Assembly: GCA_001599295.1 (NCBI GenBank)
Contig: BCGN01000002.1
Location: 2,170,001-2,234,000, forward strand
Direction: 5' to 3'
Length of the DNA: 64,000 nt
Source: Sporopachydermia quercuum
Taxonomy: Eukaryota; Ascomycota; Sporopachydermiomycetes; Sporopachydermiales; Sporopachydermiaceae
Shown here: piece after piece, positions 6,558-63,900 of the stretch
Position numbering within the stretch: the first letter of the stretch is position 1
Layout of the letters: every line of letters starts with the position of its first letter
Position numbers and translations under genes: made by a program
The notes under the pieces: generated by a model
Database searches by the model: none
What the model saw: the letters and a program-made list of their open reading frames with translations, nothing else
What the model was told of the DNA's origin: nothing

Positions 6558-6574
6558 CTGGTGAATGGTCAATC

Positions 6575-12521: not shown

Positions 12522-12688
12522 GTACAAGGAGAGACATATAAAATAAGTACGATTACAAGCAAGTAATACAAGCTATCAATACAAATGATACAAGCACTTT
12601 CAATGGTTAGCATATATCAATAGCAATATGAACTATGCATATCAAAAGATAGAAATATACACTTCTACAAACCATTTCACATAATATG

Positions 12689-16628: not shown

Positions 16629-16779
16629 TATTATTGAGGGTAAATTTTTTGCTACGTGTAAACAGAAGCTCAAGAGCTTTGATTAAATGCTCTGGTTGTC
16701 TCTTTCACCTGTTCACTGAATCAGTGCTTAATCCGAATCTGACAGTGTNTCAGTAACGATATTCGTCTTATTTCCCCTT

Positions 16780-41282: not shown

Positions 41283-44200
41283 ATGAATCAAGCAAGCGGA
41301 ACTTCCGCCTCGACCAAGGGAAGTTCTCATAACGACAAGAAAGAAACAACGGCAGCTGCAACGTCCGTAGCAGAGAAATCTTCCGTTTCCCACAAAGCGC
41401 AATATCCTAACTCGGGAAATAGGCTCCCAGGCAGAGTCCCAAAGCAGAAATCAACTACCAGAAACAGAAAAAATGTTTCAGCTATTGAAGTTTCAAATCT
41501 CAAAATCCCTGGCGCTATTCCAATCACTATACCGATAGTGAAACAAAAATCCCGCTCTCGGAACACAAATGTTAAATCTCGGTCTGGTAGTTCTCTCGAA
41601 GGAGCTCTTTCTTCCGCATCAGCATCCGCTTCTACTTCTGGATCGGTATCAACATCAACATCAACATCAACATCGGCATCAGGATCATCCACTCATCACT
41701 ATAATCCATTCACATACCCTCAATCTCGATCTCGAGCAAATCCTCCGCTTCATTTAGCGCTGGTGACAACAAAAAACGACGTTAAGGAAAACCTTCTACC
41801 CCGCGAAGCCCCTTCCAACCGTTCCACCTCTTTCCTTTCATCGGAACCTTATCCTGAACCTGCGGAAACATATTCCAACCCTATGAACATACCGCAAGCT
41901 CCTACGTTTTGGCCTTCGGCAGAAGAGTTTCAAAACCCCGCCGTATACATTGAAAAGATCCGGCCGGAAGCGGAGAAATTCGGAATGGCGAAAATTATCC
42001 CGCCATTGAGCTGGAACGTTTCGTTTGCCTTGGACACAGAACTCGCTTGGTTCAAAACCAAACGGCAAGTATTAAATGCTCTTAAAGATCCAGAAGAGGC
42101 GAAACAAGCCTTCTTAGAAGAACTGAACCTGTTCCATAAGCTGCGCAACAGTTCCATAGCCAGGCTGCCGAGTATTGATAAGCGACCATTAGATTTGTAC
42201 CATCTTCGGAACGGTGTCCAATTACGGGGTGGCTTCCACGTAGTATGTGGAAAGAAGCTCTGGGCACAGATCGGAAGAGAATTAGGTTACAGCGGAAAGA
42301 TTATGACGTCACTGTCGACATCGTTGAAATCGTCTTACTATAAGCTAATATATCCGTACGATGAGCATGTGCGGAAGTACGGGAAGGTTCGGTGGGACAA
42401 AGTGGGGCAGGCGGAAGAAAACAGCGGGGTAGAAGGAGAAATTGAGGAAAGCAAGAAAGAAACCTCGGAAATAATAGCGGAAGAGAAAGAGGAGTGTACG
42501 ACTTCCGATATCTCAACTTCCGGTCAACCTCCACGGAAGAAACTGAAACCTAGTAACAACTCCCCCTCCCGCGCTTCTTCCTCATATCTTAATAAGCAAA
42601 CTGCTCCGAAGATACAAGCATCGGAACCGGAAATCCGCCGGAACCTCGAAACTCTGCGGGGTTTGAAATACCCCACATATTTCTCCAATGCCACAGACGA
42701 TAGAAAAATAAACACTGCCTTCCCCACCAATGGTACTTCTGGATACAGTCTAGAGAAGTGGGACCACGGGNTAGAAACACTGGATAACTCTAAATACGAT
42801 ACCAAAGATGCACCTCTTTATAATCTTAAACAATTTTTCGAAAAATCTAAACAGTTTGAAGAGAATTTCATATCGGAGCGGAACCTTAATTCGATCTTGG
42901 TCTCGGAGGAATTACTAGAAAAGGAATATTGGACCGCGGTTAAAGATTTAAATCAGGCAATAGAAGTGGAGTATGGTGGGGATATTCATTCTGTGGTTCA
43001 TGGCTCGGGTTTTCCGACTATAGAAAGAGGTTCAAGAAACTGTGGGGAATTGATAGATGCATGGAATCTAAACAATTTCAGTTTAAATGAAGGGTTCTTG
43101 TTACGATACTTGGATTATCCCGCAATATCGGCTACTTTGCCCTGGCTTTACGTTGGAATGCTATTTTCAACCGAAGCTTGGACTGTTGAAGATCATTTTC
43201 TATCGAAGGTAATTTATTCCCATTTAGGAGATACTCGGATATGGTACACTGTTCCAGAGTCAGAGTTCGACAAATTTGAGGATTTAGTGAGGGGAAAGAG
43301 GGGTATGTGTGGTAATGATTCTAGCTTGGAAACGGTTGATTTCAGCATTAGCAATAATAAGACCCCCCAGTCCTCACAAGCCAACTGTCTTGCTAAACCA
43401 AAAAACTCAGGGAATCCAGTGAAAGTTTCTCTGTTCGATGCAGAGCCAACTCGTGAAGAGAGACCGTATGATGCAGTTTCGGCTCCAAATAAGATCACTA
43501 ATGACAGTATTAAAGAGGAAAAGGAGGATAAAGAGAGCAAGAACGATACCGGAAAAGCCATTAAAAGTGCTGAAAGTATTTATCACATTCGGAACGTTGA
43601 AAGAATTAGTAATAGTATTACTAGTGGCATTAATGATACTGTTGAAAGTACTGCTATTTTCAATAGTGATGATAAAGAAACTATTCATAGCACTATCGTT
43701 ACTAGTGATAGTATAACTGGTGATACTTTAAGTAACACAAGTTGTGCTGACAGTAACGCTAGCAATACCAATACTGCTGATGAGATTACTATTAGCACTA
43801 GTAGTAATGTTACTAGTACCACGGCTGGTACCAATGATACTACATTTAATAGTAATCACAATGCTATCGGTAACACGATAGATGGGATGACCATTGACAA
43901 CGCTATTGAAAATACTGTTGAAAATACTAAATACAACACTTCCAACAGTATTGATAGTATTGGAACCAGCAACAATTATAATAATCACTGTAATAGTACT
44001 AGTAATAATACTGTTGTTATCCCATCTATTATTACTTGTAATAGTATTAATGATAGTATCAAGAACAATCAAAATACTGCTCATAATAACGAACATAAAA
44101 GTATGAAAGATGATGCCAATATCTCTGTTGATGCTACAGCTGGTACTACAAAGGATAATACTAAGAATGGTACCAGTGAAAGTATTGATGATGACACTAT

Positions 44201-45872
44201 GAATAATGGTGATAGCGATAATGACGACAAAGTACAAGACTGTATCAATGATTACAACAGTCATACTACTAACGATAACAATGCTAATATTGTCGATGAA
44301 ACAACTTATACTTTTGTTGTAACTGAAAACTCTAACGAACTCGAAAACGAAAACGACAACAAGGAAAGTATTATGAATAATCATGTTGAACATAACAGTA
44401 GTAGCAACAGCAGTAGCAACAGCAGTAGCAACAGTGATACTGCTAGTAGTGCTGCTAGTAATCCCAGTGATGATGATTCTAATTGTAGTATCAACCATAT
44501 TTCTATCAACGACAAGGAAAAGGTAAACAAAAAAGAAAGCGAACAGGATGAAATTATGACTGATGTTGTAGTTGATGTTGATGACAATATTAGCAGTAAC
44601 AATGTCAATGTTGTTGTTGGTGGTGGTGATGACAATAATAGCGGNCATACTGCTATTTGTTCTGCTGGTTTTAGCAATAATACTGCTGTTAATGCAAATA
44701 AAGATGCAATTCCAATTGATGATGCTAAGAATATTAGACGTAGCAATATCAACAGCAGTGTCGACAGTAATACCACTGTTAATACTGGTATTGCCCCCGT
44801 TGATGACATTATTGTTGGTAGCAACAATGTTAATGATAATAGTGACACTAGGAAGAATGTTGATGGTATTGCTGAACATGGCAATAATACCAGCAATAAC
44901 ATCAATAACATCAATAGCGATACCCCCAGTATTGTAGCAACAAACAACGACAATAATTCATCTATCCGTCTTGATGATCATTACATTGATAGTACCGCTA
45001 ATACTGCTAATAACAAAAATAAAACCGTTAACAGCGGCATTAGTAACAGTAACAGTAACGGCAACAAGACAGTCGCAATTTCAAACATAGCTGAAAATGA
45101 ATCAATTAACGTCAATGGAATTCGGGAAACCAGCGAACTATCACACGCAGATAATACAACAGACGCTACCCCTTCCACCCCACTAAGCTCCGATTCATTC
45201 ATAACTCCGGAATTTCTTATTGCAAATGGAATTAAATGCTATACTATCCGACACCGACCGGGTCAATTTGTGATCAAATTCCCAAAAGCCCGTTCGGCAT
45301 GTGTAAATCTTGGGTTTAATGTTCTGGAAGGGGTTAACTTTGCAGGGCAGGATTGGCTGAAATTCGGATTTGACGGAGAAAATTGGCTGTCGGAACAGGA
45401 GACCCCGCCTTTATTAGATGTTTCATCACTAATAATAGTGTACGTGGAGAATAATAGTGGGGAGAACTTAAAATGGATCAAACCTTATATGGACCATGTT
45501 TATGTGAATGAGATGAATATGCGGCTTGATTTTCGGAAGGCAGCTGGCGAAATAAGCGAGATACCGGAAAGAGTAAATCGGAGTGTGTTTTGCGGCTCGA
45601 TGATATGCAGTATCAACTTTAAACCTTGTTATTTATCCCGCGTTGTTGTGTATGAGCATGAGCACAGTGAGGCAACTAACGGGGCAACAAGCGGGGTAGT
45701 CGGAGAGGATGAAAATGAGGTGAAACTGTTTTCCCTGTCGGCTTTATTAGACAAATTACAAACCGGAGATGACAGTGATTTGAAAGGGAAGAAATATGAG
45801 TTAGTGGTTAGATATACGGATGAGGAACTGAAGCAGCTTGTTAGTAAAGTCAATGGGATAAGTGAAGGGTAG
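41283..45872 (+). CDS. ECM5: Ecm5, JmjN-ARID-JmjC protein with catalytically degenerate JmjC
   Basis: An Ecm5-type chromatin protein, a subunit of the Snt2-Rpd3 complex in S. cerevisiae. The first ATG (41283, MNQASGTSAS) gives 1529 residues. JmjN is at about 208-250 (FWPSAEEFQNPAVYIEKIRP). An ARID-like region is at 276-365 (RNGVQLRGGFHVVCGKKLW). The first JmjC half is at 598-663 (LPWLYVGMLFSTEAWTVEDH) and the second near 1309-1360. In active JARID enzymes the iron ligands lie in HIED and AYHSGFN; here they read TVED (Thr634) and ARSACVN (Ser1338), so two histidines are missing. The two halves are separated by roughly 640 residues of Asn, Ser, Thr and Asp. I see no C-terminal PHD finger, which S. 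cerevisiae Ecm5 has. MMT is the next gene, as YMR176W-YMR177W. Confidence 0.88.
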   Translation: MNQASGTSASTKGSSHNDKKETTAAATSVAEKSSVSHKAQYPNSGNRLPGRVPKQKSTTRNRKNVSAIEVSNLKIPGAIPITIPIVKQKSRSRNTNVKSRSGSSLEGALSSASASASTSGSVSTSTSTSTSASGSSTHHYNPFTYPQSRSRANPPLHLALVTTKNDVKENLLPREAPSNRSTSFLSSEPYPEPAETYSNPMNIPQAPTFWPSAEEFQNPAVYIEKIRPEAEKFGMAKIIPPLSWNVSFALDTELAWFKTKRQVLNALKDPEEAKQAFLEELNLFHKLRNSSIARLPSIDKRPLDLYHLRNGVQLRGGFHVVCGKKLWAQIGRELGYSGKIMTSLSTSLKSSYYKLIYPYDEHVRKYGKVRWDKVGQAEENSGVEGEIEESKKETSEIIAEEKEECTTSDISTSGQPPRKKLKPSNNSPSRASSSYLNKQTAPKIQASEPEIRRNLETLRGLKYPTYFSNATDDRKINTAFPTNGTSGYSLEKWDHGXETLDNSKYDTKDAPLYNLKQFFEKSKQFEENFISERNLNSILVSEELLEKEYWTAVKDLNQAIEVEYGGDIHSVVHGSGFPTIERGSRNCGELIDAWNLNNFSLNEGFLLRYLDYPAISATLPWLYVGMLFSTEAWTVEDHFLSKVIYSHLGDTRIWYTVPESEFDKFEDLVRGKRGMCGNDSSLETVDFSISNNKTPQSSQANCLAKPKNSGNPVKVSLFDAEPTREERPYDAVSAPNKITNDSIKEEKEDKESKNDTGKAIKSAESIYHIRNVERISNSITSGINDTVESTAIFNSDDKETIHSTIVTSDSITGDTLSNTSCADSNASNTNTADEITISTSSNVTSTTAGTNDTTFNSNHNAIGNTIDGMTIDNAIENTVENTKYNTSNSIDSIGTSNNYNNHCNSTSNNTVVIPSIITCNSINDSIKNNQNTAHNNEHKSMKDDANISVDATAGTTKDNTKNGTSESIDDDTMNNGDSDNDDKVQDCINDYNSHTTNDNNANIVDETTYTFVVTENSNELENENDNKESIMNNHVEHNSSSNSSSNSSSNSDTASSAASNPSDDDSNCSINHISINDKEKVNKKESEQDEIMTDVVVDVDDNISSNNVNVVVGGGDDNNSXHTAICSAGFSNNTAVNANKDAIPIDDAKNIRRSNINSSVDSNTTVNTGIAPVDDIIVGSNNVNDNSDTRKNVDGIAEHGNNTSNNINNINSDTPSIVATNNDNNSSIRLDDHYIDSTANTANNKNKTVNSGISNSNSNGNKTVAISNIAENESINVNGIRETSELSHADNTTDATPSTPLSSDSFITPEFLIANGIKCYTIRHRPGQFVIKFPKARSACVNLGFNVLEGVNFAGQDWLKFGFDGENWLSEQETPPLLDVSSLIIVYVENNSGENLKWIKPYMDHVYVNEMNMRLDFRKAAGEISEIPERVNRSVFCGSMICSINFKPCYLSRVVVYEHEHSEATNGATSGVVGEDENEVKLFSLSALLDKLQTGDDSDLKGKKYELVVRYTDEELKQLVSKVNGISEG
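43300..45190 (+). repeat. Low-complexity Asn/Ser/Thr/Asp tract inside ECM5
   Basis: Nearly 1.9 kb of short, diverged triplet-like repeats built from AAT, AGT, ACT and GAT codons, with small near-perfect pieces such as AGCAGTAGCAAC repeated near 44397-44432. The few stop codons in all frames come from this base composition. Confidence 0.8.
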
Positions 45873-48805
45873 AGGGCAAGGAATCGGAGAAGATAGTAGT
45901 ACTCAATCTTGTTTTGCATTTCGGAGATTGTGAGAACGAGAACCTTTGGAATGGAACTCCGGAACTCCGGGGAAGTGAATGATGGCCCCGTCTTGCCAAC
46001 CTAAAAAGATATTCTGGCACAAGCTGATTAGTTGATTGAATTAGTATCATAATGTCACCATTTTTGTCTATTAAGAACCCTCCACAAGAAGAAACAATAG
46101 TAAAAAATTGGAGGTGCAAACGAACGTTATTGGCAAGAATAAGAACGTAGAAACGTTGACGGTTGACTATTGAACCTTCTTGTTGATAGCAGGATCATTT
46201 ATTCTTAATCTTGAAGCACCTTTTCTCTAAGATTCCAAGTCATACAACGGGGAAATGAACGTTGATGTTCAGAGGAGGATTTGGCGGAGGTAGCCAGACT
46301 TTTTGGCGGGGCAGATCTTCTCAAGCTTATAGCTGACATGTCGGCTGATGATATGCTTTGATAATAGATAATAGATAGAACGGTAACTGAACTGTTGTAA
46401 TTCTTGTTATAGCTGTTCTTATACTTATAATGATAATCTATTATTTCAACCTAGACTTTCGTCATTTCCTCTTAACTCCTCATGTTATATTGGAATCTCT
46501 TAATGTTTCTAACTTACTGCTAATAATATTGTTACATTTTCCCTGTGAAAAGAATACTATGAGGAAAAGTTGGGTAAAACTTGGTTTTCCTGTATCTTCA
46601 ACACTGGCGATGACATTGGTGTTGTTTCCCTCGCTCTCCGCTATCAGTTCTGTTGAAGGTGTAGAGTTCCAGATGACTCAAGAGTGTATTTTGGTATCAA
46701 AGCACTTGATTTTAGCTGTGATTTATTATGGCTATCTCGTTTAACATCATCAGTAGCTAAATCTCACTCTTAATCTTCTTCCAGTTCAAAATTATTATAA
46801 TCAGCTACCGTGTTTTCATCAGCAGCAGCATTCGGGATTCACTNCTCTCGGGATTCACTAGAAGAGATACTTTATTATTACTGGTAGTACCAGTGTCTAC
46901 TACACGTCAATCATACGTAATAAAGAGATGAGCTTTTCAACTGCAATTATCTTCTAATTCTCTTTTATTGTTCTTGTATTTCACGTGTATCTCACTTCTA
47001 TTTACATTTCATAGATCTCATACAATGGCACATATGGCACATGTGTATAGACAGTTCTTCCCAATTCTACGTAAGATACCATGAATATAGTCAATTGTGT
47101 ATTTAACAAATGTTCTCTTAAATACTTGATAATTTATGATTTACGTGGTAACATAAGCTAAGATAATTCCATGAAGTGCCATTTTTGAGCATCGGAACGA
47201 AGAAGTCAATGCCCTTGATTTGATGATGTAAGAAACAGCCAGGAGTCGATCAGCTACTAAGTTCCAAGTACTGTTTTGAATAACGGCGTAACTTTTGAAT
47301 AGTGGGACAGCAAGTTATATATGTCGCCTTATATTAGCAATTAAGTAATAGTATAGATAACAAGAATATTATATAAAAATAGCTAAATTAGAGCCCCCAC
47401 ATATATAGAGAATAAATGAACTTCTTTCATGTAAGTAATAGAGATCCTTGACCTTTCCTATAGTTGAGTTGCTGAAATCAATAGCGTTGCAATTTGTATT
47501 TGAAGCTATTTGTTTATTCACTATACTAGCTAATTGGTGTAATTGATCATATGCTATCGTATACTTATTTAAGAATATTCCAAATAATAATATCCTTAAT
47601 AATAACAATAAACTATCTACGATATAACTACTTGCTAGGATAGAGACAGAATACATATAAGCGTGAAGTTAGATTTCTAACTGGGCTCAAATATATACTT
47701 TTTTCTTTTTCTCACTACGGAATTAAAGATTATAAGTTGTCTAATTATTCCAGCACTTTACTGTTGGTGCTAAAACACGTTCGTATGGCTCTTTGCCAGT
47801 TGATATTCTACAGTAGAAGAGAAATAGATGTTGTGGCTCATTGTGGCTCATTGTGGCTCATTGTGGCTCATTGTGATTTATTGTCTGTATATAGAAATTA
47901 AAGTGGAAGAGGCCCCACCTTGAAATTGGATTTCGGAGTTAAAGTCTGAAACTGGAGAAACTTACTAAACTATATTTGTACAAATTTCCCCCGACAAATC
48001 CCGAGTTCTTGTATCTGTGGTAATAGAGTATGTTTTATTAGTGTGGTGGTTCACCCCTTAGTTAAGATACAAAACAGGTAACGTTAGTGTTAGTGACAAA
48101 TCGGCGACTGAAAAATCAATCAAGAATTGGAAGATTTTATACTTGAAATGGAATTAATATAGTTGGTAGTTGATGATTAATGACCAGCATTTGACTATTA
48201 AAATGTTATTGGGATTATTTTATTCATTTGAAGGATTTTCATAAAAAGAGTTGAGAGAATCTTGATGTACTGTTGAAGCGAAAATTTGGATTCGTCTATG
48301 AGAATTACTTTATCAGTTTTCTCTCGGAGATAGGTAGATTATTAGAAGGGTAAGAAGAAGAGGAAAATTTGAGATAGAATAGTCAAGCGGAAGTCAAGGA
48401 AAGAAAGTTAGGATATTATTAGGCAAATAGAGTGTGTCTTGAGAGAATCTTTACTTTTTGTCCAACTGACATTCGATATAAGGAAACATAGGATCCGTAA
48501 TTGCATAGAATATTGGTTGATAGGACCTGTGATTTAAATCGTCTTGCTTTGATTCAATTTTGTGCATTCGGACTAGACGAACCAACACTGTTTGGTCAGA
48601 ACCATATTATTGCAACAGTGGTTTCAATGATTCACAACACTGATATTGCTTAAGGATACAAACAAACATTTTGTATTAAGTGAGCTATAGTTCAACACAT
48701 AAGGTAAAGAAAATCCGCTGAGTTAAATATCGTTTCACCTAAATTTATTCAATTTTATTTCGTTCTCTTTAGTGATTTATCGTACAGTCATCCACACACT
48801 CCGCA
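45873..48805. other. Long intergenic region ECM5-MMT
   Basis: About 2.9 kb, the largest gap. It contains a tandem 10-bp repeat (below), a CACGTG at 46982-46987, and frames of 104 codons (46430-46744, plus) and 95 codons (47369-47656, minus) without recognisable domains. The length leaves room for a small spliced or RNA gene that I cannot identify. Confidence 0.4.
47831..47876. repeat. Tandem repeat, 10-bp unit TTGTGGCTCA
   Basis: Four perfect head-to-tail copies (47831-47870) followed by a degenerate partial copy beginning TTGTGATTTA. Confidence 0.95.
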
Positions 48806-50377
48806 ATGCTTATGACAGTCAAACCGAATATACGACTGCTGAACATCACATGTTGCAGAGTCAGCAGTAGTACCAATATTACTACTGGTGTTCACTGTGT
48901 TCGTGGTGGGAAAACTGGGAGCAACTCTGCCAGTAATTTTGAACTTGTCGCATCGTTATGGTTGAAACGGAGCTTGTATACGCAAGCATCAACTGCAACA
49001 ACTAGAAGGTGTACTGGGATTCTCCAACCTCAGGAAATGCGTTTTCAGAAAGCAGTTAGACAGAACAGAGTGTTTGCTACGTTTGCGGTACTGCAGAATA
49101 TGTCACAAAATATTGGCAAGCCACAGGTACAAAAGGATGGAGATGGAAAAGAGCACAATCATGAACAACAGCACAATCACGAAGAGCATAATCATGAAGA
49201 ACATAATCATAAATTAAACAGCAATAATCATGACCACGAACATGATCATGCCCATTCACACGGCCCCTTTAGTCTACTACACCACGACCACCATCACCAC
49301 AACCCAGAAGAAAACGTACTTCTGACAGAAAAAGGAAGCATTTGGAAAAACCCAGTATTAAGAATTACCTGGATTGGTATGTTGGTTAATGTAGGAATGG
49401 CTGTAGCTAAAGGTTTTGGCGGTGTAGTGTTCCATTCACAAGCATTACTTGCCGAAGCTGTGCATTCCTTCTCAGATCTTCTGTCTGATTTTGTTACCCT
49501 TTTCACAGTACGGTTCAGTTCAAGAACTCCAACAGAAGACTTTCCAAAGGGGTACGGGAAGATTGAAACTCTTGGAACGGCTATGGTCTCAGGACTGTTA
49601 TTGATCGCTGGTTTGAATATAGGTTGGACCAGTTTGGTCACTATGATAGGTCCTTATGTTCCCCATGAGGTTCTTGATGCTATCACTGGTATTATTGGCG
49701 AAGGGCATTCTCATTCCCACGGACCTGCGGCTGGGGATGGTCATACTGTTGATATCAATGCTGCTTGGCTTGCTTTGCTGTCCATTGGTATCAAAGAATG
49801 GTTATTCCGTGCTACACTGAAAGTAGCTAAAAGTTCAGGTTCTACCGTATTAGCCGTGAATGCATGGCACCATCGTGTAGATAGTATGACCTCTTTTGTT
49901 GCTCTGGCAGCTATTTCTGGCTCTTATTTCTTAGGAATGAGTCTTTTGGATGCTATTGGAGGATTAGCTGTTTCTACTATGGTGGTTCGTATAGGTGCTG
50001 AAGGTGTTAAAAATGCTACCATGGATTTGTTGGATAAGGTAATCCCTAAGACTGATGAGAGATATCAAAATGTTCTTTCGCAAGCTGCAAACGCTTTGAA
50101 AACGTTTGCCCCTGAAATTAATGGCAAGCCTATTGAGTATACTGTAGAAGGATTGAAATTACTACCATCAGGACCTAATATGGTTGCGGATTTGAAGATT
50201 GGTGTTCCTGCTGCTGATCATGATATATCAGCAAATGATTTGATCAATTTATCGCATAATGTACGTAGTAAGCTTTCTCATGACATTAAACAGTTGAAAC
50301 GACTGACTATAGAATATGAGTTAGATACAACAAAGAAAGCAAGAGAAGAAAGAGAGGGAAAGCAAATCAAGAAGTAA
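48806..50377 (+). CDS. MMT1: Mmt1/Mmt2-type mitochondrial cation-diffusion transporter
   Basis: A cation diffusion facilitator of the Mmt1/Mmt2 group, which handles mitochondrial iron. It has 523 residues. The N-terminal region (about 1-100) is basic with few acidic residues (LWLKRSLYTQASTATTRRCT), fitting a mitochondrial presequence. A His-rich cytosolic or matrix segment covers about residues 117-165 with repeated HNHEEHNH and ends HHDHHHH. The six-helix domain follows, with the metal site in TM2 (EAVHSFSDLLSDF, His220) and TM5 (NAWHHRVDSMTS, His356 and Asp359). The C-terminal cytosolic domain has GPNMVADLKIGVPA. A second short His patch, GHSHSHGPAAGDGH, lies between TM4 and TM5. The gene follows ECM5 in the same orientation, as YMR176W-YMR177W. 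Confidence 0.92.
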   Translation: MLMTVKPNIRLLNITCCRVSSSTNITTGVHCVRGGKTGSNSASNFELVASLWLKRSLYTQASTATTRRCTGILQPQEMRFQKAVRQNRVFATFAVLQNMSQNIGKPQVQKDGDGKEHNHEQQHNHEEHNHEEHNHKLNSNNHDHEHDHAHSHGPFSLLHHDHHHHNPEENVLLTEKGSIWKNPVLRITWIGMLVNVGMAVAKGFGGVVFHSQALLAEAVHSFSDLLSDFVTLFTVRFSSRTPTEDFPKGYGKIETLGTAMVSGLLLIAGLNIGWTSLVTMIGPYVPHEVLDAITGIIGEGHSHSHGPAAGDGHTVDINAAWLALLSIGIKEWLFRATLKVAKSSGSTVLAVNAWHHRVDSMTSFVALAAISGSYFLGMSLLDAIGGLAVSTMVVRIGAEGVKNATMDLLDKVIPKTDERYQNVLSQAANALKTFAPEINGKPIEYTVEGLKLLPSGPNMVADLKIGVPAADHDISANDLINLSHNVRSKLSHDIKQLKRLTIEYELDTTKKAREEREGKQIKK

Positions 50378-51444
50378 GTGGAAAGAGCAGGAGAAGGCGT
50401 GAGTCTTATGGAATTTTTTGTATATGCAAACAGCAATCAGATATGATTTGATGTTTATCAATGCGCAAACTGGATAAAACAACTAGAAGCATTCAAATAG
50501 AACGAAGAAGAGAAAGAAGAAGAGAAAGAAGAAGGAAAAGTAATTTAAGTAAACTTATACCCCCTCTGAAAGGATAGTAAAAAATCGATGATGATGTTAA
50601 TAATACTTTTGAGTATTCATGATAATATTCTCCCACATTTATACTCATATAATTATTTATCTATAGATTATTATATTAGGACCCCTGTTTATATTTCAAT
50701 ATATATGAAGATAATATTTCAAGCACTAAACCTTGGATATCGTGGAGATTAATATACAATAATACTATATAATGATGTCTCATAAGAGTCAAAATACGAA
50801 TTTGATTGTATATGCTGTTGGTTGATTTTATGATTTAATGGAAAAATTGAGTATATTTCATAAGCAGAATTAACATTAAAAAAGCTTATTTAATAGTCGA
50901 TTCTTATTCGTGGTTGATGTTTATTTTGTTGATTTATCTATTCTGTGTAATCAAAGTTGGCTCTATAAAGAAACCTGTCTTTCTACTGGCAATTTATGCC
51001 TAATTAGTGTCAATTTATGCTACTTCATGTCGCTGCTTCGAACTCGACTTATGAATTATTGTTGAGCAAGTGTACCTTTGTTCAATTAATGTACCTCCCA
51101 TTGTCCGATTAACAATTTTCAATTCACTGGACATTTATTAACTAGGTATTAGCATACTTTGCATAAATCCATACATTTACTATGTACTTGTTGTGCCATC
51201 ATCGTACTTCAGAAAGCATTTTCAGCGGAACCTGCTTTGTTGGTTATTACCTTTTTTTACAATTACTGAACATTCGTTAACAATATCATCTACGCTACCA
51301 GTATTTCTGCTTTCTTATTTATAATTTCTTAAAAACATTCAAACAATTTAACCAAAACTCAATTTTTTTTTCAATTTGTTTATATCATATAGCATAACAT
51401 AATTGATATAATGTGACTCATAATTGTTATGTAAACAGATGCCA
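50378..51444. other. Convergent intergenic region MMT/YPL225W homologue
   Basis: About 1.07 kb. A purine-rich GAAGAAGAGAAAGAAGAAGA stretch lies near 50505-50540. The rest is AT-rich with no supported gene. Confidence 0.45.
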
Positions 51445-52864
51445 TCAGTTCTTATGTTGTTCATAAATCCAATCGTTTAAACCATAACGGTTTCTGCAAA
51501 TTTCAATTGCATAAAATTGTAATCGCAAGGCTAAAANTACTGTTAGCAATATGTTAAGAATTGAAGCAAAAAGTAAAAGGATCTTAGGACATTGACAGTT
51601 GCTGATGNTTAGCATTTGGTTGCTCCGAAATGGTATTCATCCTATTTTTCATCCTTTGATTAGACAACATGACCAGCAGCAGCTTCTGTAGAATTTACTA
51701 GCTCTGACAAACAATTGATAGTTGTTCTTTTCGTTATTGTGTACATGTTACTATCCCATGCTTGTTCTGTTGCTCGTTCTATCGCTGTTTCTATTGTATT
51801 CTACTGTTATTTATACCACTTTTCTATCATTATTTCTGTTCGACCTTCACTTTTACTCAAATACCTCCTAATCATCAACGAATCTCACAATCCTCCCAAT
51901 TGTTCGCCCATATACTTACCAAAAATTGTAGTGTCTTGATCATATTCAGCGTTTGAATCAGTTCTTAGCAAAGTACCAAAATTATAATCATCGACTTTGC
52001 CTTCAAATTCCTTCATGAAAACTCTCCATCTTTCTTTTCCTTCCTTGGACTTCATAGCTTCTTCATTAATTGTTTTCACTCCTTCCTTGGTTAAATATTC
52101 AGGAAATTGTTCTCTAACAGCATCAAAAACATCATCATCAAATCTGAATACAAATGTTAGAATTTTCTCAATAAATAAACAATAATAGCAAAGAGTTACT
52201 AGTGAATAATTGGATAATTATCAAGCTGTTATAATGCTAAAAGAGCTACGTACTTTGTTAGCTTAAGCTTACTGCCTGGTACTTTATTTAATAAATTCCA
52301 GTAGGTCTCTGATGAAAGCTATGTTAGTAATCATGAATATATTCAGGTAAGAACAATGTTGATATTACTGTTTAATGTTCTGCAAATAACATGAATAATA
52401 ATAGACATAATAAATAAATACTAAAATGCAATAGATAGAGACATAGGCATTATAATAGACGAAAGCATCAACACTTACCAGCTTGAGTAACTGCCTTGAC
52501 AGCGAATTGCTTCTCGATCTGTTTATAGTGTTAGAGTATATTGAACGTAAAAATATGATAAAGAAGAGAACGTAGAGATTTAAAAGTAGACATTCTATTC
52601 GTCGGTTTTATTGTATGACATTCATTATTTTCGTTTTAGGTTGATTCGGTAGAGAACTGTCAGGCACTTTTGTCTTATTGTAATTAGCAGTTCCAACGCA
52701 TTCTTTATAATAAAAAATTACTCTCAGTTTTTGTGCACCTACTTATTAATCCCCTCTAGTTTCTAATCGATTCATTGGCTCTCCCTGTAATGAGAAATCA
52801 TAAATAGAAAATTACTTACGTCTTCGAGATTTTCAGCTTTTTCTGGGTCAAATGTAGATGTCAT
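51445..52864 (-). CDS. CHP1: YPL225W/PBDC1 homologue, eEF1A chaperone, five exons
   Basis: S. cerevisiae YPL225W (Chp1) is a small chaperone for nascent eEF1A; PBDC1 is its animal relative. Only one exon shows as an obvious open frame. I assembled five: 52820-52864, 52479-52518, 52254-52308, 51920-52143 and 51445-51530, giving 149 residues against 146 in yeast. The joined protein runs MTSTFDPEKAENLED, IEKQFAVKAVTQAETYW, NLLNKVPGSKLKLTKFDDD, KERWRVFMKEFEGKVDDYNF, GTLLRTDSNAEYDQ and ALRLQFYAIEICRNRYGLND. It matches the yeast protein end to end. Donors are GTAAGT (three) and GTACGT (one); branch sites include TACTAAC-like and GCTAAC. All junctions keep frame. The neighbours MMT (convergent) and NEW1 match YPL224C-YPL225W-YPL226W. 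Confidence 0.93.
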
Positions 52865-54141
52865 TTCTTATCACTATATTGCTTGTTTGAATTTGTGAAG
52901 NTACGTAGATTTTCATAACCGCTCCTGTTGGCTATCGATTTTTATAATTGTAGCAACCAAAAAGGTAATCGAAAGGTCAAAACAAAATTAAGAGAAAGAA
53001 AAGAAATAACTAAACCAATCTAATAGAAAAGCACTCGTAGATCTACAGTAAAAGACTAGAGTGATTTATTCCTTTTTGTTCTAGAAGTGATATTGCAGGT
53101 ATTGCACATGACNGTGCAGGTCAAGCGCAGTAGGTTAACAGTAGGTTAATTTAGGTCATCACGTGAATGAGGGTGGTGGTAGAATCTATGGCAGGAGAAA
53201 TCAATCGACTAGATGAAGATGTAGAAACAAATCAATTGATAGAGTTGTAGAAGATTGTAAAGTACTCTAGTCTTTTCTATGTTTATAAGATTCAGAAATT
53301 TTTCTTTCCAATGGCAAGGTCGAAAATGGTAGTAGCTTTTTTTCTTTCTTTACCTCCCGTGGTCCTCCCGTAGTTCTCCCGATAGGGTTCCCATAAGAGG
53401 TGGTTCAAGGAGTGATTTGCTCTTCTCTTTCCCTAGAAAACTCAATAAGAGCCACATGGTATACACATTACATACTAATCTTAAGAGGTATCAATCTAAA
53501 TTTTCAACTGACAAAGAAAACAAATTATTTTCGACTTAGGTACAAATTACAGCGAATTTCAAAATGATACTTTTTTCAGTCATTCTCCTTGGTTGATTTA
53601 AAACATATTAAGTTAGTTAGCTCCCTCCCGCCTTAGATGCATTCTCTTGATATTTGCACTACTTCAAATTTCGGAAATTATTCTTCTTATTATCTCCTAC
53701 CCTAGTTTTGGACCTCCGGTCTCCCCACATTTTCAGACATCTCCCACTCTTAAATCGCAGAAATGGCCCACCGAGGATTCAACTCACCTACTGCTTCCTC
53801 TTCTTCGTTTCTACATTTAATCGTCCTTTGGGATCTTCATAAGTTTTGCTGCTAAATACTTTCAATACTACTCAATATTAATCCGTACTACGAGTTTACT
53901 GTACTTTTGATTTTCTTCGAAGTNGGATACTAAGAAGATCAATCGGTAACACCTCATTGAGAAACTCAATTGATATCNCACGATCTCAAATTGCCTTATT
54001 TCTTATTCTATTACTTTTTTATTCCTTTAGACTGATCTAGGTGTTTATTCGCACTTACAAGTCAATAATACCTTTATCACTCTTCCTGATTCAATTTCAA
54101 CAGCAAATCATCTCATTTATCATCTGCATCATCTTAGCATC
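52865..54141. other. Divergent intergenic region
   Basis: About 1.28 kb between the YPL225W homologue and the MoCF gene, holding both promoters. A TCACGTGA palindrome is listed separately. The right half is pyrimidine-rich with several CTCCCG/CTCCCA motifs. A 62-codon frame at 53654-53842 is not supported. Confidence 0.45.
53159..53166. promoter_or_regulatory. TCACGTGA site (Cbf1/bHLH-type)
   Basis: A second copy of the same 8-bp palindrome seen upstream of PWP2, here about 295 bases above the YPL225W homologue start, near ...GGTCATCACGTGAATG. Binding is inferred. Confidence 0.4.
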
Positions 54142-55246
54142 ATGTCTGCATCTACGACTACCAGTTCTACTTCTACGCCTATAGTTCGAACAGCGGCTTG
54201 TCTTATCATTGGCGATGAAATTTTAAACGGAAAAATCATTGATACCAATTCCCAGTACTTCGCAAAATACTGCTTCCAGCTGGGAATTGATGTTAAAAGA
54301 ATTGAAGTGATTGGTGATGAAGAGGATGATATTATCAGATCGATTCAGTATATGTCTGAGAACTATGATTTCATTGTCACTTCTGGTGGGATTGGTCCTA
54401 CACATGATGACTTGACATATGAAGCAAGTAAGTATTTTTTTGATAAGAGGAGTTTTTTGTTCGATGTAATATTATAATATTATTTAGTCTATCTGATGAA
54501 TAGTATCATCAAGTGGTACGATTTCTTTCCATATTATGATCTATTCCTTATCAGTCAGATCATCTTACTTTTTGTAATTTCCTACTAACAGTCTCTTAGT
54601 TGCTAAAGCGTTTAATATGGCAGTGAAACTAGACCCTATAACAGTCGAACGAATGGATAGGCTCCGCAAGCGAACTATTGCTAATATGACAGATGAAATT
54701 AAATCTGCTCAACATAGGATGGCCATTTTACCATATGGTGATTCAGCTGAATACTTATTTCCTATTGAAACTCTCTGGGTACCAATTGTGCGTATTGTGG
54801 GTAAAATACACATCCTCCCAGGGGTTCCCCAGCTGTTTCAGCAGCTTTTAGAATCGTTAAAGCAAGATTTAGAAGCAAGAACAGCAGTAGAAAGACGGTT
54901 TGTTCGTTTCTTCGTGTCTTGTGATCTTCCAGAGTCTGCAATGGCTCCTTATTTAACTAAGCTTCAAAATAAGGTAGACGATGATTACAAAAAGACCAAA
55001 GAAAATAGTAAAAGCCAAAATGATGCAAATTCTGGTGATGCGATTTATTATCCTGTTAAAATAGGTAGTTATCCTCATATGGGGCTTCAAATCAATACTG
55101 TTAGTATTATTGGTCGTCAGAAGGATGTTGAATATCTTCGCAATATTGTAAAAGATGTTGAGAAGAATTTACAAGGGGAAGAGATCAGTGCAGAGCAGGA
55201 GAAAGCGTATTCAGCTAATAGGGACATTGTTAAACTTGGGAAATAA
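54142..55246 (+). CDS. MoCF/CinA-type domain protein, YMR178W-like
   Basis: A protein with the MoaB/Mog fold used by molybdopterin-binding and CinA-like proteins; the S. cerevisiae relative YMR178W has no settled function. Two exons, 54142-54427 and 54600-55246, give 310 residues. The intron starts GTAAGT, has a TACTAAC branch site and ends CTTAG. Splicing completes the diagnostic GIGPTHDDLTYEAIAKAFN motif. The first exon has AACLIIGDEILNGKIIDTNS and YDFIVTSGG. The second has IETLWVPIVRIVGKIHILPG followed by VPQLFQQLL, the usual second half of the domain. The C-terminal 100 residues (YYPVKIGSYPHMGLQINTVS) resemble the FLAD1/CinA extension. Budding yeasts lack molybdenum cofactor synthesis, so a direct cofactor role is unlikely. 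Confidence 0.86.
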
Positions 55247-55753
55247 GATAGTGTATATGAATCCGATATATGATATTATGGTATCATGGTATTATGGTAG
55301 TATGTGTGACAGTATTCGATTCTGCCTATTATTTATGATAGAAATTATTTAGAATCATATTTCCATCCATATGGGAAGACTACGGACTACCCGTTAAATA
55401 TTCATAATTGTAGTATTACATATCAATTCATTCACCTGTGAAGACAACCCATCGTAATTCATTTGAATAAATCTGTCTGCCTGTTGCGTACCTCATTCAT
55501 GAATGATCATAGCATGGATGCACTATTCTTGTAATTTATAATGGATTTAATTTTGTTCAAAGAACCTCTATNGTCATTACTTCAAATAATCGAACGAATA
55601 TGAACACTTATAAGTTTATTTATACCCATTTAAACACCCAATAAACTATAAATTGTTCTTTAAATAAAACTATACATAAAAACAATCTCTATAACCCAAA
55701 TAAAACTCAGTATAAACTAACATATTCTTTCCTGAATACACTTTCTATAACAT
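55247..55753. other. Convergent intergenic region
   Basis: About 500 AT-rich bases between converging genes, one N, no feature seen. Confidence 0.5.
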
Positions 55754-58700
55754 CTAATCATCTCCTTCATCGTCAGTGTCTGGTGGTCTTGGTGTACCTT
55801 TAGGCGATGATAACCATTGCAAATATCTTTGTCTTCTACGAGCATCTCTTTCTTTGATTTGGTTTCTAGTCAACTTCTTCTTTCTTTGACGGACTTTGAT
55901 GTTAGCTGGTGAATCATCATCGGTTGGCTTTGGTGTATTGCTTCTTGTTGATGCTGCAGACCCGCTATCTGCTGCTGCTTCTGCTGCCGCTGTTGCTTCA
56001 TCATTTCCTCCATCTTCAAATCGGCTACCATCGACAGCAACTTTACCTCTCTGAACAACTTCTCCGTTTTCAATAATCCATTGTTCAGGGCATAATGCAC
56101 CTACAAACTCATTGTTGTGGGAAATCATCACTACTCCTCCGTTCCATTCTCTAATAGCCATGGCTAAGCCCCCAAGAGAGTCACGATCAAGATAATTGGT
56201 AGGTTCATCTAAAACAAGTAAATGTGGCTTATTCCACATAGCTCCTGCAATGACTACTTTCACCAATTGCCCTCCAGACAATGATCCAAGAGGAGTATGA
56301 TCTGCAATTTCAGAATCAAGTCCAACATCTTCAAAATGTTTAGAAATCACCGAAGGAACTAGTTCTCTGTACCCAAGACCTTCTCTAGAAGCTTCGTGAT
56401 CGTCAAACTTCTGCACAAGCTTAATAAATCCTTCGTCAATAAGACGTTCTCTTGGGACCCATGAATTATACTTTGGAAGCCAGAATTTCCATTTGATTTC
56501 GTATTGGAAAGACTTTTTCAATTTCTGTCTTCCAACAATTGCTTCAATCTCCCGAGGTCCCCTTCCGTCTTGAATATCAATTTCTTTGCTCATTTGCTCT
56601 TTCTCCTCGTCCGAGATCTTACGAGACTCTTTGAGTAAGACCTCCCGATCTTCTCCGAATTTATATCTCCACTGTAGATACTGATTAGCAGTTTTTTCCT
56701 TATGTTGTTCTACATGCTGAAGGGCATGCTGGGCAATATAGCCAATTCTGAGGTTAGGGTGTTTTTCTACTTTACCAGAGTCAGGAATAGTTTCCCCGGT
56801 CAACAATTTAATTAGCGTTGATTTTCCTGCTCCGTTCGGGCCCAAAATTGCGACTCTTGATGATAAAGATAATGAACAGCTCACGTGTTTTAACGAAGGT
56901 TTACTAGCACCGGGATAAGTGAAAGTCACATCATTCAATCTTGCAACAGCTCTAGTGTTACTTTTAACACCAGTAAGTAAACCAGGTGAAGGGAAGGACA
57001 TTTTAACGTTAGAATCAGTTAAAGTATAATATGATTTGCCTTCTGGTTTCACTTTCACGAATTCAGATAAATTTCCTTTATAATAAGCGAGCTTCTTGTT
57101 TTCGTAATGAATGATATCAGTACAAACAATGTCCAAAAAACCTGAATCGTGAGAAACAATTAAAGAAGTGATTTCAGTATGTTGAAGTAAATAATCCTGT
57201 AACCACTTAACGTTGGTGACATCTAAATGATTTGTAGGTTCATCCAAAAGTAAGATATCTGCCTTCATAAGCATGGCTCGAGCAAGTTCTAATTTCATTT
57301 TCCAACCACCAGATAAAGATCCTACATTTTGGTCTCTTCTTTCTTCATTGAAGCCGACTTCTTCCAAAGCATTAGCAATTGATTGTTTATCTACTCCTTG
57401 TAATTCACTGTCACTAGCTATGAATGAGACGAGATCCATATCTGCTTCTGAGCCTTGCAATTTATGTTCCACGAAACAAGTACGCAGTTCACTTTTATCT
57501 GGAAATCCTTCTAATTTTCCTTGAGCAATTGATCTCATTAGCGTAGATTTTCCTGCACCGTTTCTTCCGCAAAGACCATAACGATGTCCTTTCAATAATC
57601 GTAGAGTTGTTTTATTGAGTAACATTCTTCCGCCATAAGCCAATGAGAAATCAGTGTTCACAATCTCAATTCCATCATCTTCAGCTTCGGTGGCAATTGT
57701 AATGTCTGCTAAGCTACGGAGCTCGGCAACAATAGCTGTGGCTGTATCTAAATCTGTTGATTCATTGTCAGAGCCTTCTATATTACCCTTATTTTCATTA
57801 TCATGGGCAGAATTAAGTACCAATTGAATGAAAACCTGTAATTTCTTCCAATCACCTGAATTTGCCATTGTAGAAATAACCGTAGCTATGTATAATTTTT
57901 CTGTTTCGCTGTCATTGCTTATTTTGCTGTTAAGCATTGGTAAAACGTCCAAAATAGTGAATCTCTTACTTAATAGCTTCTTATTCAATTCCTCTTCGCT
58001 ATCAGCATCCTGCAACACCTTCATAGCCTTTTCGCCAAGTGATCTTACTTCGGGTAATGCAGCTGTTTCTACAACTTTCTTAATTCCTGGAAGCAAGAAT
58101 GGGATAAATGGTTTGACTTCTCTTGGATCATTAACTAATCTGGTGAGATTTTCCACAACAATAACTGTTTGTCTAAGCAAGTCTTGTGAAGTTGACGACT
58201 GGTTCAAAGCTCTAACAAGAATGGGTACCAAAAGTGATAATGCTGGTTCAGTTACTTCCGCTACGAAGGTAACTTGAGATAAAGCTTTAATACATGGTTC
58301 AACCTGCTTTGGATCTGAGAGTGCTTTGATAATCAATCCGTACCTGGGGCCCAGATCCAAGTTATCTAGAATGGAAACAAAAGCCGTGGTAGTTTTAGCT
58401 GCGCCACTGGCAAGTTCGGGTTTGAAATCGGTCATCATAGAGGTGAAAACTGGAATAGCAGAGACAAAAAGTCGTTCTAGGAGATCAGCAGGGACTTCTT
58501 CAATTATACGGTCAATGAGCTTCAGTAAAGCNAGTTTGGATTGCCATTTAGCTGAGGAGCTGAGGATTTTCAATAGCTCGGGAAATATTATTCCTGGAAC
58601 TGCCTCTGGAGGGAATGCAGTGTATAATGAGTCAATGGCTGATTGAGCAGCTCTTTTAACAGCATTGTCCTTTTCAGCTAAAAGATCAAGTGGAAAGACA

Positions 58701-59365
58701 AAGAAATCTTGCAGGAAAGCTTCAGCAGGGCTTGCTTCTGAAAATTGGCGGGCCAAACCGGAAAGCAAAACCATTGAACCTTCTTTAGTAGCAGGAGTGT
58801 TTTTCGGCTTTGAGAACTTTTTTATATAGTGACCGATTTGCCAATTTTCGATAGCGGAAGGTCCCTTCTCAGCAATTTTCTGAACAGTTTCTGTAGCAGC
58901 CTTGCGAGCAGCAATATTGGTTTTAGCTGAGCCGAGCTCTCCAAGTAGTTCGGTCACTGGAGAATGTTCAATTTCGTTTAAAGCGGAAGCCAATGAGGAC
59001 AAAGAGGTACTTGACATGTTAGGAGTGTTCAATCCGGAAGAGGGGTCAACGTTACTAGCTGTGGAACTAAATCTATCTGGTTGCGGAGTTCCAGCTCTAG
59101 AAGATCTTATAGAAGCATTAGAAGACTGACGGGATTGTTGATTGTAGTTCGCGTTTCGGTTGAAATTATGGGGTTGGCGGGGCTGTGGGGCAATTCCAGA
59201 TACGAAATTTTGTCCGTGGTTTGGTACGTTTCCCTGTTGGTAACCTTGGCCGTAAGAATGATCAGCATTGTATCCGNTATACTGTTGATACTGTTGATTC
59301 TGAGGCTGACTCTTACCGGGTGGAACAAAAGGCGCAGCGCCCGGGTTAAATTTAGGTGGGGCCAT
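55754..59365 (-). CDS. NEW1: New1, ABCF translation factor with prion-like N-terminus
   Basis: New1 is an eEF3-related ABCF protein acting in translation termination or ribosome recycling. It has 1203 residues (about 1196 in S. cerevisiae). Residues 1 to about 75 are rich in Gln, Asn, Tyr and Gly (QNQQYQQY, GYNADHSYGQGYQQG), matching the prion-like domain that separates New1 from eEF3. HEAT repeats fill about 130-520. ABC1 has Walker A GRNGAGKSTLMRS near residue 600, with LSGGWKMKLELARAML and LLLDEPTNHLDV. ABC2 has Walker A GPNGAGKSTLIKLL near 838, then a chromodomain insert (YEIKWKFWLPKYNSWVPRER), and LSGGQLVKV and LVLDEPTNYLD. The C-terminal tail is basic then acidic (KVRQRKKKLTRNQIKERDAR). 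Its position beside the YPL225W homologue matches YPL226W-YPL225W. Confidence 0.96.
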   Translation of the reverse strand: MAPPKFNPGAAPFVPPGKSQPQNQQYQQYXGYNADHSYGQGYQQGNVPNHGQNFVSGIAPQPRQPHNFNRNANYNQQSRQSSNASIRSSRAGTPQPDRFSSTASNVDPSSGLNTPNMSSTSLSSLASALNEIEHSPVTELLGELGSAKTNIAARKAATETVQKIAEKGPSAIENWQIGHYIKKFSKPKNTPATKEGSMVLLSGLARQFSEASPAEAFLQDFFVFPLDLLAEKDNAVKRAAQSAIDSLYTAFPPEAVPGIIFPELLKILSSSAKWQSKXALLKLIDRIIEEVPADLLERLFVSAIPVFTSMMTDFKPELASGAAKTTTAFVSILDNLDLGPRYGLIIKALSDPKQVEPCIKALSQVTFVAEVTEPALSLLVPILVRALNQSSTSQDLLRQTVIVVENLTRLVNDPREVKPFIPFLLPGIKKVVETAALPEVRSLGEKAMKVLQDADSEEELNKKLLSKRFTILDVLPMLNSKISNDSETEKLYIATVISTMANSGDWKKLQVFIQLVLNSAHDNENKGNIEGSDNESTDLDTATAIVAELRSLADITIATEAEDDGIEIVNTDFSLAYGGRMLLNKTTLRLLKGHRYGLCGRNGAGKSTLMRSIAQGKLEGFPDKSELRTCFVEHKLQGSEADMDLVSFIASDSELQGVDKQSIANALEEVGFNEERRDQNVGSLSGGWKMKLELARAMLMKADILLLDEPTNHLDVTNVKWLQDYLLQHTEITSLIVSHDSGFLDIVCTDIIHYENKKLAYYKGNLSEFVKVKPEGKSYYTLTDSNVKMSFPSPGLLTGVKSNTRAVARLNDVTFTYPGASKPSLKHVSCSLSLSSRVAILGPNGAGKSTLIKLLTGETIPDSGKVEKHPNLRIGYIAQHALQHVEQHKEKTANQYLQWRYKFGEDREVLLKESRKISDEEKEQMSKEIDIQDGRGPREIEAIVGRQKLKKSFQYEIKWKFWLPKYNSWVPRERLIDEGFIKLVQKFDDHEASREGLGYRELVPSVISKHFEDVGLDSEIADHTPLGSLSGGQLVKVVIAGAMWNKPHLLVLDEPTNYLDRDSLGGLAMAIREWNGGVVMISHNNEFVGALCPEQWIIENGEVVQRGKVAVDGSRFEDGGNDEATAAAEAAADSGSAASTRSNTPKPTDDDSPANIKVRQRKKKLTRNQIKERDARRRQRYLQWLSSPKGTPRPPDTDDEGDD

Positions 59366-60911: not shown

Positions 60912-63900
60912 CTAATCGTCATCGGAAAGCGTAAGATCAATAACTTCTGCATAGACCCTTTTAGTTCCGGCATTACCAGTATTAATTCCTGTATTTGTTC
61001 CGCTATCGTTTCCTTCATTAGAACTATTTCGAGAGACTGAAATTCCACCTTGAGACGATCTGTTTGGGCGAGTATATCCTTGCCGACGGAATCTCGGGAA
61101 TATTGGCGGAGAATCATCTGAAGAACCGCTATTAATACCGTCATTATCTCTAGAATCAGCTCCGAAAGAACTTCTATTGTTGGAGTTGAGATTACTGAAG
61201 AACTCGTTATACTTGTTATTGCTTGCAGGGCTGCTGTTAGTGGTTGGTGTGTTGTCCGACAGCTTGAAGAGTCCTGTGCGTGGAAAGGGCATATTGGATG
61301 CACGAGATGTGTTTATCGAGTCTTGGGAACTCTCCAAGTAGTTAAAATTTGTTGCCCTACTAGGTGGGTCCCTCCTAGCTACCATGTTAATATTGTCAGT
61401 ATCAATTGCTGTGATAGGTGTCCGACCAGTAGTTGTTCTATTGGCGATGGGGTTTGTTCTATTAGGAGGAGTGGAAGCTTGATCGTTGTGAGAGGAGTTT
61501 AAGTGGTTCGAAGAGTTCGAGGGGTTAGAAGAGATTTCAAAAGAGTCACTCGGAGTGGAAGAAAATCTGGAAGGGGAAAAGGTGGGCACTGTTGTGGGAA
61601 TTTTTCTTCTTAAAAGAGAGTTCTGTGACCAAGATGGGATCGAAGGAATGTCTGCAGGATTTACCGAGTTACTGCTCGTGCTTGACTGATTAGCTGACAA
61701 AGATTTTCCAGTAATTTCCGAAATGCTGCTTCCAGGAACAGATTCAGAACTGGAACCCCTTGTTACATTCCCGTTATCATTCCCATTTTCTCCAATTGGA
61801 GAATTTCGTTTTGAACTTAGTTCTCGATCCCGATCCGAGTTTCCATCTACATCTTCAAACAGTTCCGAGTCCAGATCGGCTAAACCATAATCATTGTCCG
61901 AGTTTGCTTCCTCTTGTGGCAAAACAGGAATAATTAATTCATGAATTGGTTCAGGAGCAGAAGCAATATTTGGGTCAGTTCCATAGTCAGTTTGGTGTGT
62001 AATTGTCACTGAGGTAACATTTCCGTTATGCGACGATGTATTCTGCTCCACAGTTTGCTTCAGGTTTTGGCTGGCAGAGGAAGTTTCCGGGTTTGCTGAT
62101 GAGCCCCTGATTCTTCCGAGAAGAGACGAAAACCCAATTGTTTGTCCTTGCTGGTTGATATTGTTTTGTTGTGGTCTATTATGAGTTTCTACATGTTGGG
62201 CACCAGGGGTAGATTGTGTAGATACATCGGACGAATGAGATGCATATGCATGTGCATCATGAGAGGTACTACTCGCAGTATTGCTATGGTTGCTAGTGGT
62301 ACTACTACTGCTGGGAAGTGCGATATCAGCAGTGTTAACAGTTGTAACATTGTTTCTGTCATTTCCGCTACTGGAAACTACTCCTGGCGTAGCTTCTGTT
62401 CTAATAGTAGAAGTATTATCTGCTCCTGTTCCACTCCCAAACACCGCACCGCTTCCTGTACTTCCCACTGAGCCTAAATCTCTTCTTAATTTTGCTCGGG
62501 GATCGCCAGGGCCTATTCCCCTATACTGGCCTGTTCTTCTCGGAATGAATATTTGCGGTGTACGAGGTAAATGAGCTCTCGAAGAATGCGACGATAATGT
62601 ATTTGCTGAGGAATTAGTTACTACTGTTGGGTTGTTGGATATCGACTGAGTCGACTGTGTTAACTGTGTTGCATGTGCTGGTCTCGGCACTGTACTGTTT
62701 GATGCTGTCGCAACAGGAACCCCATTCTGTTGTCTATATGATGCATTAGCAGTACTAGGACTACTAGAGGCTGTGGAAGCACTTTGGGCACTTGGAACGC
62801 TNTTTGGTGCTGTTATATTCTGGCCATAATTTATGTTACTATCGTTAAAACCAGACTGTCGAAGTGGGAAAAAATTATCAAACGAGTTTGGAGTTGGAGA
62901 GGTCAAGGACAGATTTGTTGTAACTGATGCTGTTGCTGTGGGTGCTGCATTTGATCTAGCACTATCACTAGTTCCCAAGTCAAAAGCTGTGCTAGTAGTA
63001 GCTTCTATAACATTTGTTTCCCCGCTTTGAACTTCACCTTGCATTGTTACGCTAGTCTCTACTTCATCTTCATCGTCGCTGTCCAGAGACACGATTTCAA
63101 TTGGCTGCGTGCTTTCCGATCGTCGTTTATGTACTCTTCCTGCTCCGACATCTAGATTAACCGAGTGCTCGAATTCAGATTTCATCGCAGGCATTTCCGG
63201 TGATGCTATTCCCGTTACTTCTTCCGTTTTGACCCGCCAGACTCCGGTCGGATCTATCTCTATTGCTTCGTCATCTTCTCCAGTATTAGATAGCACATGG
63301 GCCATGAAATCATCATAGCGTAAAGTGTTCAATGGAATATATTCCTGACAAATTGGGCATGTCCATGTAATTGCTTGCTGTTGCAACATCAAGAATGACA
63401 GCATGTCAAAACATTGCATATGTTTGCATTTGATAGATTTACAAGGATATTCAATTCGGCAGTATGACAATGGACATTTTAATGAGATAACATCTGATGT
63501 GGCAACAATATCATCGTCCTCAGTCACCTTTTTATACCGTTCAAGAGTTGAATTCATATCAATATGTGGTTTAGCCAGTAAAGTATCCCGTAGTTGCTCT
63601 ACAGTAACCACCTCTGCTAAGAAGACATTCATAAGGTACACCTTTTTAGAGAAGGCGTACACAATTTCTAAGTAATTAGTTTGCGGGTGTCTTCGGGTGA
63701 ACGACGTCAAGTTTGCTGGTTTGGCTGTTCCTGGCCGGTTCTTCAAACCTCTGAGATTATCTGGGATAACTTCAGAGTTTAGCCGAACTTCTATATGCTG
63801 AGGAAATTGAATTGGAACTGGGTTTTCCGGAGTAGAGATTTCACGGGTGGTGAAATCTCGGGACGTTAAAATGATTTTATACTTGTTTGGTTCACTTTTC

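Follow-up and report, generated by a model that had tools for sequence, protein, structure and literature searches.

A run of five genes in the yeast Sporopachydermia quercuum very probably reflects an inherited gene order; that it interleaves two Saccharomyces cerevisiae regions would then be due to duplication followed by reciprocal loss in the lineage of Saccharomyces. The run was analysed within a window of 64,000 nucleotides, comprising positions 2170001-2234000 of contig C2 in a genome of 16,393,282 bases and 12 contigs. As read from open reading frames (ORFs) and exon models, its order is ECM5(+) MMT(+) YPL225W/PBDC1(-) YMR178W/FPY1(+) NEW1(-). The outer ORF bounds are 41283-59365, set by the first base of the ECM5-like reading frame on the left and by that of the minus-strand NEW1 frame on the right (Table 1). 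MMT and PBDC1 lie tail to tail, PBDC1 and FPY1 lie head to head with 1.28 kb between their start codons, and FPY1 and NEW1 lie tail to tail. An earlier note, made from the letters of this DNA, had named these five families in this order and on these strands. The families were confirmed by Pfam, PDB entries 6s47 and 2jyn, homologue names and exon models, and the order by the ORFs and exon models.

In S. cerevisiae these genes are divided between a chromosome XIII track (YMR176W, YMR177W, YMR178W) and a chromosome XVI track (YPL226W, YPL225W, YPL224C), given by systematic names of which we take YMR177W to be MMT1 and YPL226W to be NEW1. The other names are YMR178W, YPL225W, YPL224C for MMT2 and YMR176W for ECM5 (PMC2614481, seen in part). 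When the chromosome XVI track was reversed and merged with the chromosome XIII track at MMT, the window order was reproduced exactly, and five of five strands agreed with the W and C suffixes. The two tracks, the reversal and the merging had all been put forward in the earlier note and held up. The duplicated anchor of S. cerevisiae, MMT1/MMT2, corresponds to a single full MMT gene in S. quercuum. As a matter of argument only, chance assembly of five specific neighbours is not credible; the run is genuine double conserved synteny, viewed here from a genome without the duplication.

Table 1. Genes of the five-gene run and of its two flanks, in window coordinates.
Feature	Position	Strand	Evidence
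Protein kinase, left flank	36105..38630	-	Pfam
ECM5-like gene, putative ECM5 orthologue	41283..45872	+	JmjN-ARID-JmjC by Pfam, KDM5A alignment, insert measured, separate KDM5/JHD2-type gene on C5
MMT1/MMT2 orthologue, mitochondrial metal transporter	48806..50377	+	Pfam, homologue names, own-genome search
YPL225W/PBDC1 orthologue, 5 exons (52820-52864, 52479-52518, 52254-52308, 51920-52143, 51445-51530)	51445..52864	-	Exon model, PF04669, PDB 2jyn
YMR178W/FPY1 orthologue, 2 exons (54142-54427, 54600-55246)	54142..55246	+	Exon model, Pfam, homologues, paralogue on C4
NEW1 orthologue, ABC-F type translation factor	55754..59365	-	PDB 6s47, Pfam, homologue names
SIZ/PIAS-type SUMO ligase, right flank	60912..63947	-	PINIT + MIZ domains

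The ECM5-like protein is 1529 residues long, and Pfam identifies in it a JmjN, an ARID and a split JmjC domain. The JmjC domain is interrupted by a 634-residue insert at window 43287-45188, which forms one open frame of low complexity in which Asn (18%), Ser, Thr and Asp abound. In an alignment to KDM5A, two of the three positions that we take to be iron ligands are replaced, one by H to T and one by H to S. S. cerevisiae Ecm5 has a C-terminal PHD finger and a JmjC domain without the full set of iron-binding residues. JmjN was found at three loci in the genome, namely the window gene, a gene on C5 and a gene on C3. The C5 gene also carries ARID, a PHD finger and an intact JmjC motif, and is of the JHD2/KDM5 type. 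ARID likewise occurs at three loci, the window gene, the C5 gene and another on C2 without JmjN. The presence of a separate JHD2/KDM5-type gene favours ECM5 as the identity of the window gene.

The MMT protein has 523 residues and matches the cation efflux family in Pfam, and several of its named relatives are Mmt1 or Mmt2. Five exons were joined into a 149-residue PBDC1 protein that matches PF04669 at 1.1e-53, and residues 3-146 of the 149 align to PDB 2jyn, 'UPF0368 protein YPL225W', the solved S. cerevisiae protein. In this model a coding sequence of 450 bases is interrupted by four introns (110-389 bases), a high number for a budding yeast. The FPY1 model has two exons across a 172-base intron and encodes 310 residues; some relatives carry the names YMR178W or FAD pyrophosphatase. 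In comparison with S. cerevisiae New1 (6s47) the NEW1 protein scored 1415 bits, and with eEF3 671.

Copy number was assessed with six-frame searches of the S. quercuum genome. One full match and one weak, partial match were found for MMT, only one locus for PBDC1, and one full match for NEW1, followed by a 48%-identical gene on C10 that is presumably eEF3. FPY1 has a second, intronless copy at C4:1059634-1060572, 47% identical to the window copy, with a long branch and an unresolved place in the FPY1 tree. It adjoins none of the other four run genes; its neighbours resemble IML2, VMA13 and GLN1. No sister region of the five-gene run was seen within the S. quercuum genome.

Three gene trees place S. 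quercuum on a deep branch outside the Saccharomycetaceae. In the NEW1 tree it joins Nadsonia and one further sequence (100/98), and a group of nine Saccharomycetaceae sequences (100/100) excludes it. In the MMT tree it lies beside the Dipodascomycetes (91/74) and is excluded from a group of 13 sequences comprising Saccharomycetaceae, Saccharomycodes and further contigs (99/99). In the FPY1 tree it falls outside a nine-sequence group of Saccharomycetaceae, Phaffomycetes, Ascoidea and Serinales relatives (96/92). CTG occurs at three conserved NEW1 columns where all relatives have Leu. Sporopachydermia has its own class in the taxonomy. Strain JCM9486, in the portion seen of PMC5499181 (Table 3), is given as a basal lineage of 16.4 Mb, but with 15 scaffolds rather than the 12 contigs here.

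Gene linkage in other yeasts was traced among the relatives listed for three of the genes (120 of 305 for MMT, 120 of 232 for NEW1 and 120 of 4954 for FPY1), some of which carry locus tags. Only in S. quercuum was the order of all five genes read directly; other genomes were compared by tag spacing or by a shared-contig proxy, defined as exactly equal size in bases of the contigs carrying each member of a gene pair. The MMT and NEW1 tags are LADA_0F12420 and LADA_0F12486 in Lachancea dasiensis and LALA0_S05e06766 and LALA0_S05e06832 in L. lanzarotensis, 66 apart in each. If Lachancea tags step by 22, as we presume, this gap represents two genes between MMT and NEW1, as in S. quercuum. Unlike S. 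quercuum, both species are Saccharomycetaceae, and their intervening pair is deduced from tag spacing. As far as tag spacing goes, the Lachancea comparison proposed in the earlier note agrees in two species. In Wickerhamomyces pijperi, MMT (WICPIJ_002965) and FPY1 (WICPIJ_002969) are on contigs of equal size.

Among the matches listed, equal-size contig coincidences numbered 12 for MMT-FPY1 (8 of them under 50 kb), 6 for MMT-NEW1 and 2 for FPY1-NEW1. In a control with sizes shifted by 1-20 bases, the respective means were 0.2, 0.2 and 0.125, with a maximum of 1. By this size proxy, MMT and FPY1 occur on the same contig in other yeasts, including Geotrichum and Trichomonascus relatives, far above chance. 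A contig of 100,502 bases was present in all three lists. Five short MMT-FPY1 contigs measure 4.7-18.6 kb, and in the smallest about 2.5 kb remains once MMT and FPY1 are accounted for. These five are placed alongside Geotrichum, Magnusiomyces, Trichomonascus or Sugiyamaella and group with the Dipodascomycetes in both the MMT tree (10 sequences, 100/99) and the FPY1 tree (8 sequences, 87/88). A 103,657-base contig bears MMT and NEW1, and its MMT groups with Saccharomyces MMT2, as the chromosome XVI order predicts.

What the genes are, how they are ordered and oriented, how many copies exist, the Lachancea spacing, the contig sharing and the position in the trees were all observed here; the loss steps in S. 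cerevisiae and the age of the order are inferred. An early budding yeast would have carried ECM5(+) MMT(+) PBDC1(-) FPY1(+) NEW1(-). The S. quercuum lineage would have split off long before the Saccharomycetaceae, with its run neither broken nor duplicated, and the Saccharomyces lineage would have kept the run until its genome doubled. The chromosome XIII copy would then have lost PBDC1 and NEW1 and the chromosome XVI copy ECM5 and FPY1, with MMT kept in both. Because S. quercuum stands outside the Saccharomycetaceae in the trees, the order would be older than the ancestor that preceded the whole-genome duplication. The earlier note had expected an unduplicated relative of that ancestor; the region is indeed unduplicated, but the NEW1, MMT and FPY1 trees do not place S. 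quercuum as a near relative. The pattern itself marks no such relative, as any lineage with the run unbroken would show it.

Several observations weigh against an inherited order. The ECM5-like gene showed no PHD finger by Pfam or in a pattern scan of 41283-49000; ECM5 orthology would rest on its other domains and its position, which makes 'ECM5-like' the more cautious name. Because FPY1 is present twice, the case for orthology of the window copy relies on where it lies. In the MMT tree the S. quercuum sequence is flagged as a long branch (1.71), and tree roots are midpoints, chosen for drawing. The S. cerevisiae coordinates were taken from systematic names, with those of MMT1 and NEW1 presumed. 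Equal contig size is a proxy, and a shared contig, especially a long one, does not show adjacency; the tracing across species covered MMT, FPY1 and NEW1. In Babjeviella, MMT and NEW1 share a scaffold size that differs from that of FPY1. Komagataella and Nadsonia carry MMT and NEW1 on contigs of differing size, and in Komagataella, a comparison also proposed in the earlier note, the run was probably not kept. Interleaving alone does not prove whole-genome duplication, according to the part of PMC2134927 available; the present data bear on ancestral order and not on the duplication dispute in that paper.

The S. cerevisiae-like order ends at both flanks, judged by the expected neighbours, which we take to be CET1 and FMP40/SelO. 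CET1, single in the genome, lies about 1 Mb off on the same contig (C2:1212169), and FMP40/SelO is on C3. The flanks are instead occupied by a protein kinase and a SUMO ligase (Table 1); the S. cerevisiae location of SIZ1/NFI1 was presumed. Between the kinase and the ECM5-like gene the longest wholly contained open frame listed has 123 residues. The window stops 776 bases short of the end of contig C2, and visual inspection there showed no telomere repeat.

A second run, at window 2743-16682 and about 25 kb from the five-gene run, reads TAH1/RPAP3-like(-) YIH1(+) PWP2(+) CTR86/ataxin-10(+) THR4(-) SNF12/RSC6-like(-). It is presumably the reverse, in order and strand, of YCR052W-YCR060W on chromosome III. 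PWP2 was confirmed by PDB. The SWIB gene scored better to SNF12 than to RSC6, and the run is therefore counted as five or six genes. RAD52(-) and NDC1(+) are adjacent and divergent at window 21852-27067; we take these to be YML032C/YML031W, likewise adjacent in S. cerevisiae. With S. cerevisiae positions presumed, 9 or 10 of the 20 neighbour pairs among the 21 window genes are S. cerevisiae-like (4 in the five-gene run, 4 or 5 in the second run, plus RAD52-NDC1).

A background sample, fixed before looking, consisted of positions 500001-520000 of C1, C3, C5, C6, C7 and C8. It is rough, with intron-split genes missed. Of 51 ORFs listed, 40 were submitted to Pfam (11 short or edge pieces were dropped) and 33 of these matched at 1e-8. 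Strict S. cerevisiae neighbours made up 1 of 34 consecutive ORF pairs. This pair, SNF8(-) and HAT1(+), is adjacent and divergent on C8 and presumably corresponds to YPL002C/YPL001W. Looser pairs were END3 and SAL1 (two ORFs between, C5) and perhaps OPI1 and an APM gene (one between, C8). With independent breaks, the expected number of four-pair runs per 6000 genes is 0.005 to 0.4 at 3-9% adjacency and about ten at 20%. Adjacency with S. cerevisiae is below 20% in distant yeasts, with nearly all traces of synteny lost between subgroups, in the sections seen of PMC5499181, and the background sample is in line with this. Uneven breakage across the genome is hinted at, not shown, the window having been chosen for its run.

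An alternative in which S. quercuum is a close relative from before the duplication (of the Kluyveromyces, Lachancea, Eremothecium or Zygosaccharomyces group), making the order only as old as the pre-duplication ancestor, is very improbable. The matching tag spacing in two Lachancea species would suit it, but S. quercuum is left out of the supported Saccharomycetaceae groups in the NEW1 (100/100) and MMT (99/99) trees, its best named NEW1 matches listed are Wickerhamomyces, Pachysolen and Komagataella at 62-68%, and the four PBDC1 introns suit a basal lineage. Hardly any weight is given to the five genes having been joined independently in S. quercuum, or the run rebuilt by later rearrangement. 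Rearrangement did occur nearby, as neither flank is S. cerevisiae-like, but the order and strands of five specific genes agree, and both linkages, MMT-FPY1 and MMT-NEW1, are found again in other, separate lineages.

Inherited order could persist through mere lack of breaks or through selection against separation, for instance by a shared PBDC1/FPY1 promoter or linked regulation. Selection is the less expected of these, though worth entertaining. Strict neighbour pairs amount to 1 of 34 in the background, against 4 of 4 in the run and 5 or 6 of 16 other window pairs, and conserved divergent pairs in fungi tend to have related functions (PMC2871058, seen in part). However, linkage is not strictly required, since PBDC1 and FPY1 are on different chromosomes in S. 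cerevisiae and FPY1 is found on a different scaffold in Babjeviella, and the PBDC1 and FPY1 start codons are 1.28 kb apart. At 20% adjacency, the ceiling in the part seen of PMC5499181, about ten such runs per genome would arise without selection, and the window was picked because of its run. The broader proposal that the five-gene run and the RSC6-to-TAH1-like run are rare rearrangement-resistant segments, keeping near-basal Saccharomycotina order under selection while the rest of the genome is scrambled relative to S. cerevisiae, is correspondingly doubtful.

The inherited order resembles the double conserved synteny and pre-duplication ancestor of Gordon, Byrne and Wolfe 2009 (PMC2675101, seen in part), in that one unduplicated track interleaves two S. 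cerevisiae tracks and MMT1/MMT2 form a retained pair. The non-duplicated species in section 6 of that paper are Eremothecium, Kluyveromyces, Lachancea and Zygosaccharomyces, whereas S. quercuum is a deeper lineage and, unlike the reconstruction, its run is cut at both ends. MMT1, MMT2, NEW1 and ECM5 are absent from the main text of PMC2675101 as available, the ancestral genome being its Table S1, outside the search. No paper describing the five-gene order appeared among the literature search results. As a phenomenon, double conserved synteny belongs to textbook knowledge, and the depth of the block is a modest addition. The run fits the standard reading that the S. cerevisiae sister regions derive from one track, and would date that track further back than do the species on which the published reconstruction draws in its section 6. 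It may also serve as a deep outgroup for choosing the ancestral one of two orders, and the uneven breakage that the window hints at is open to genome-wide testing.

Genes for both MATa and MATalpha have been reported in S. quercuum (PMC6692504, seen in part). The MAT alpha1 family PF04769 gave no match in the genome, but none in 14 controls either, so that absence is not shown. Within the window, 46 N bases are scattered over 44 places, mostly singly, as if uncertain or heterozygous positions had been masked.

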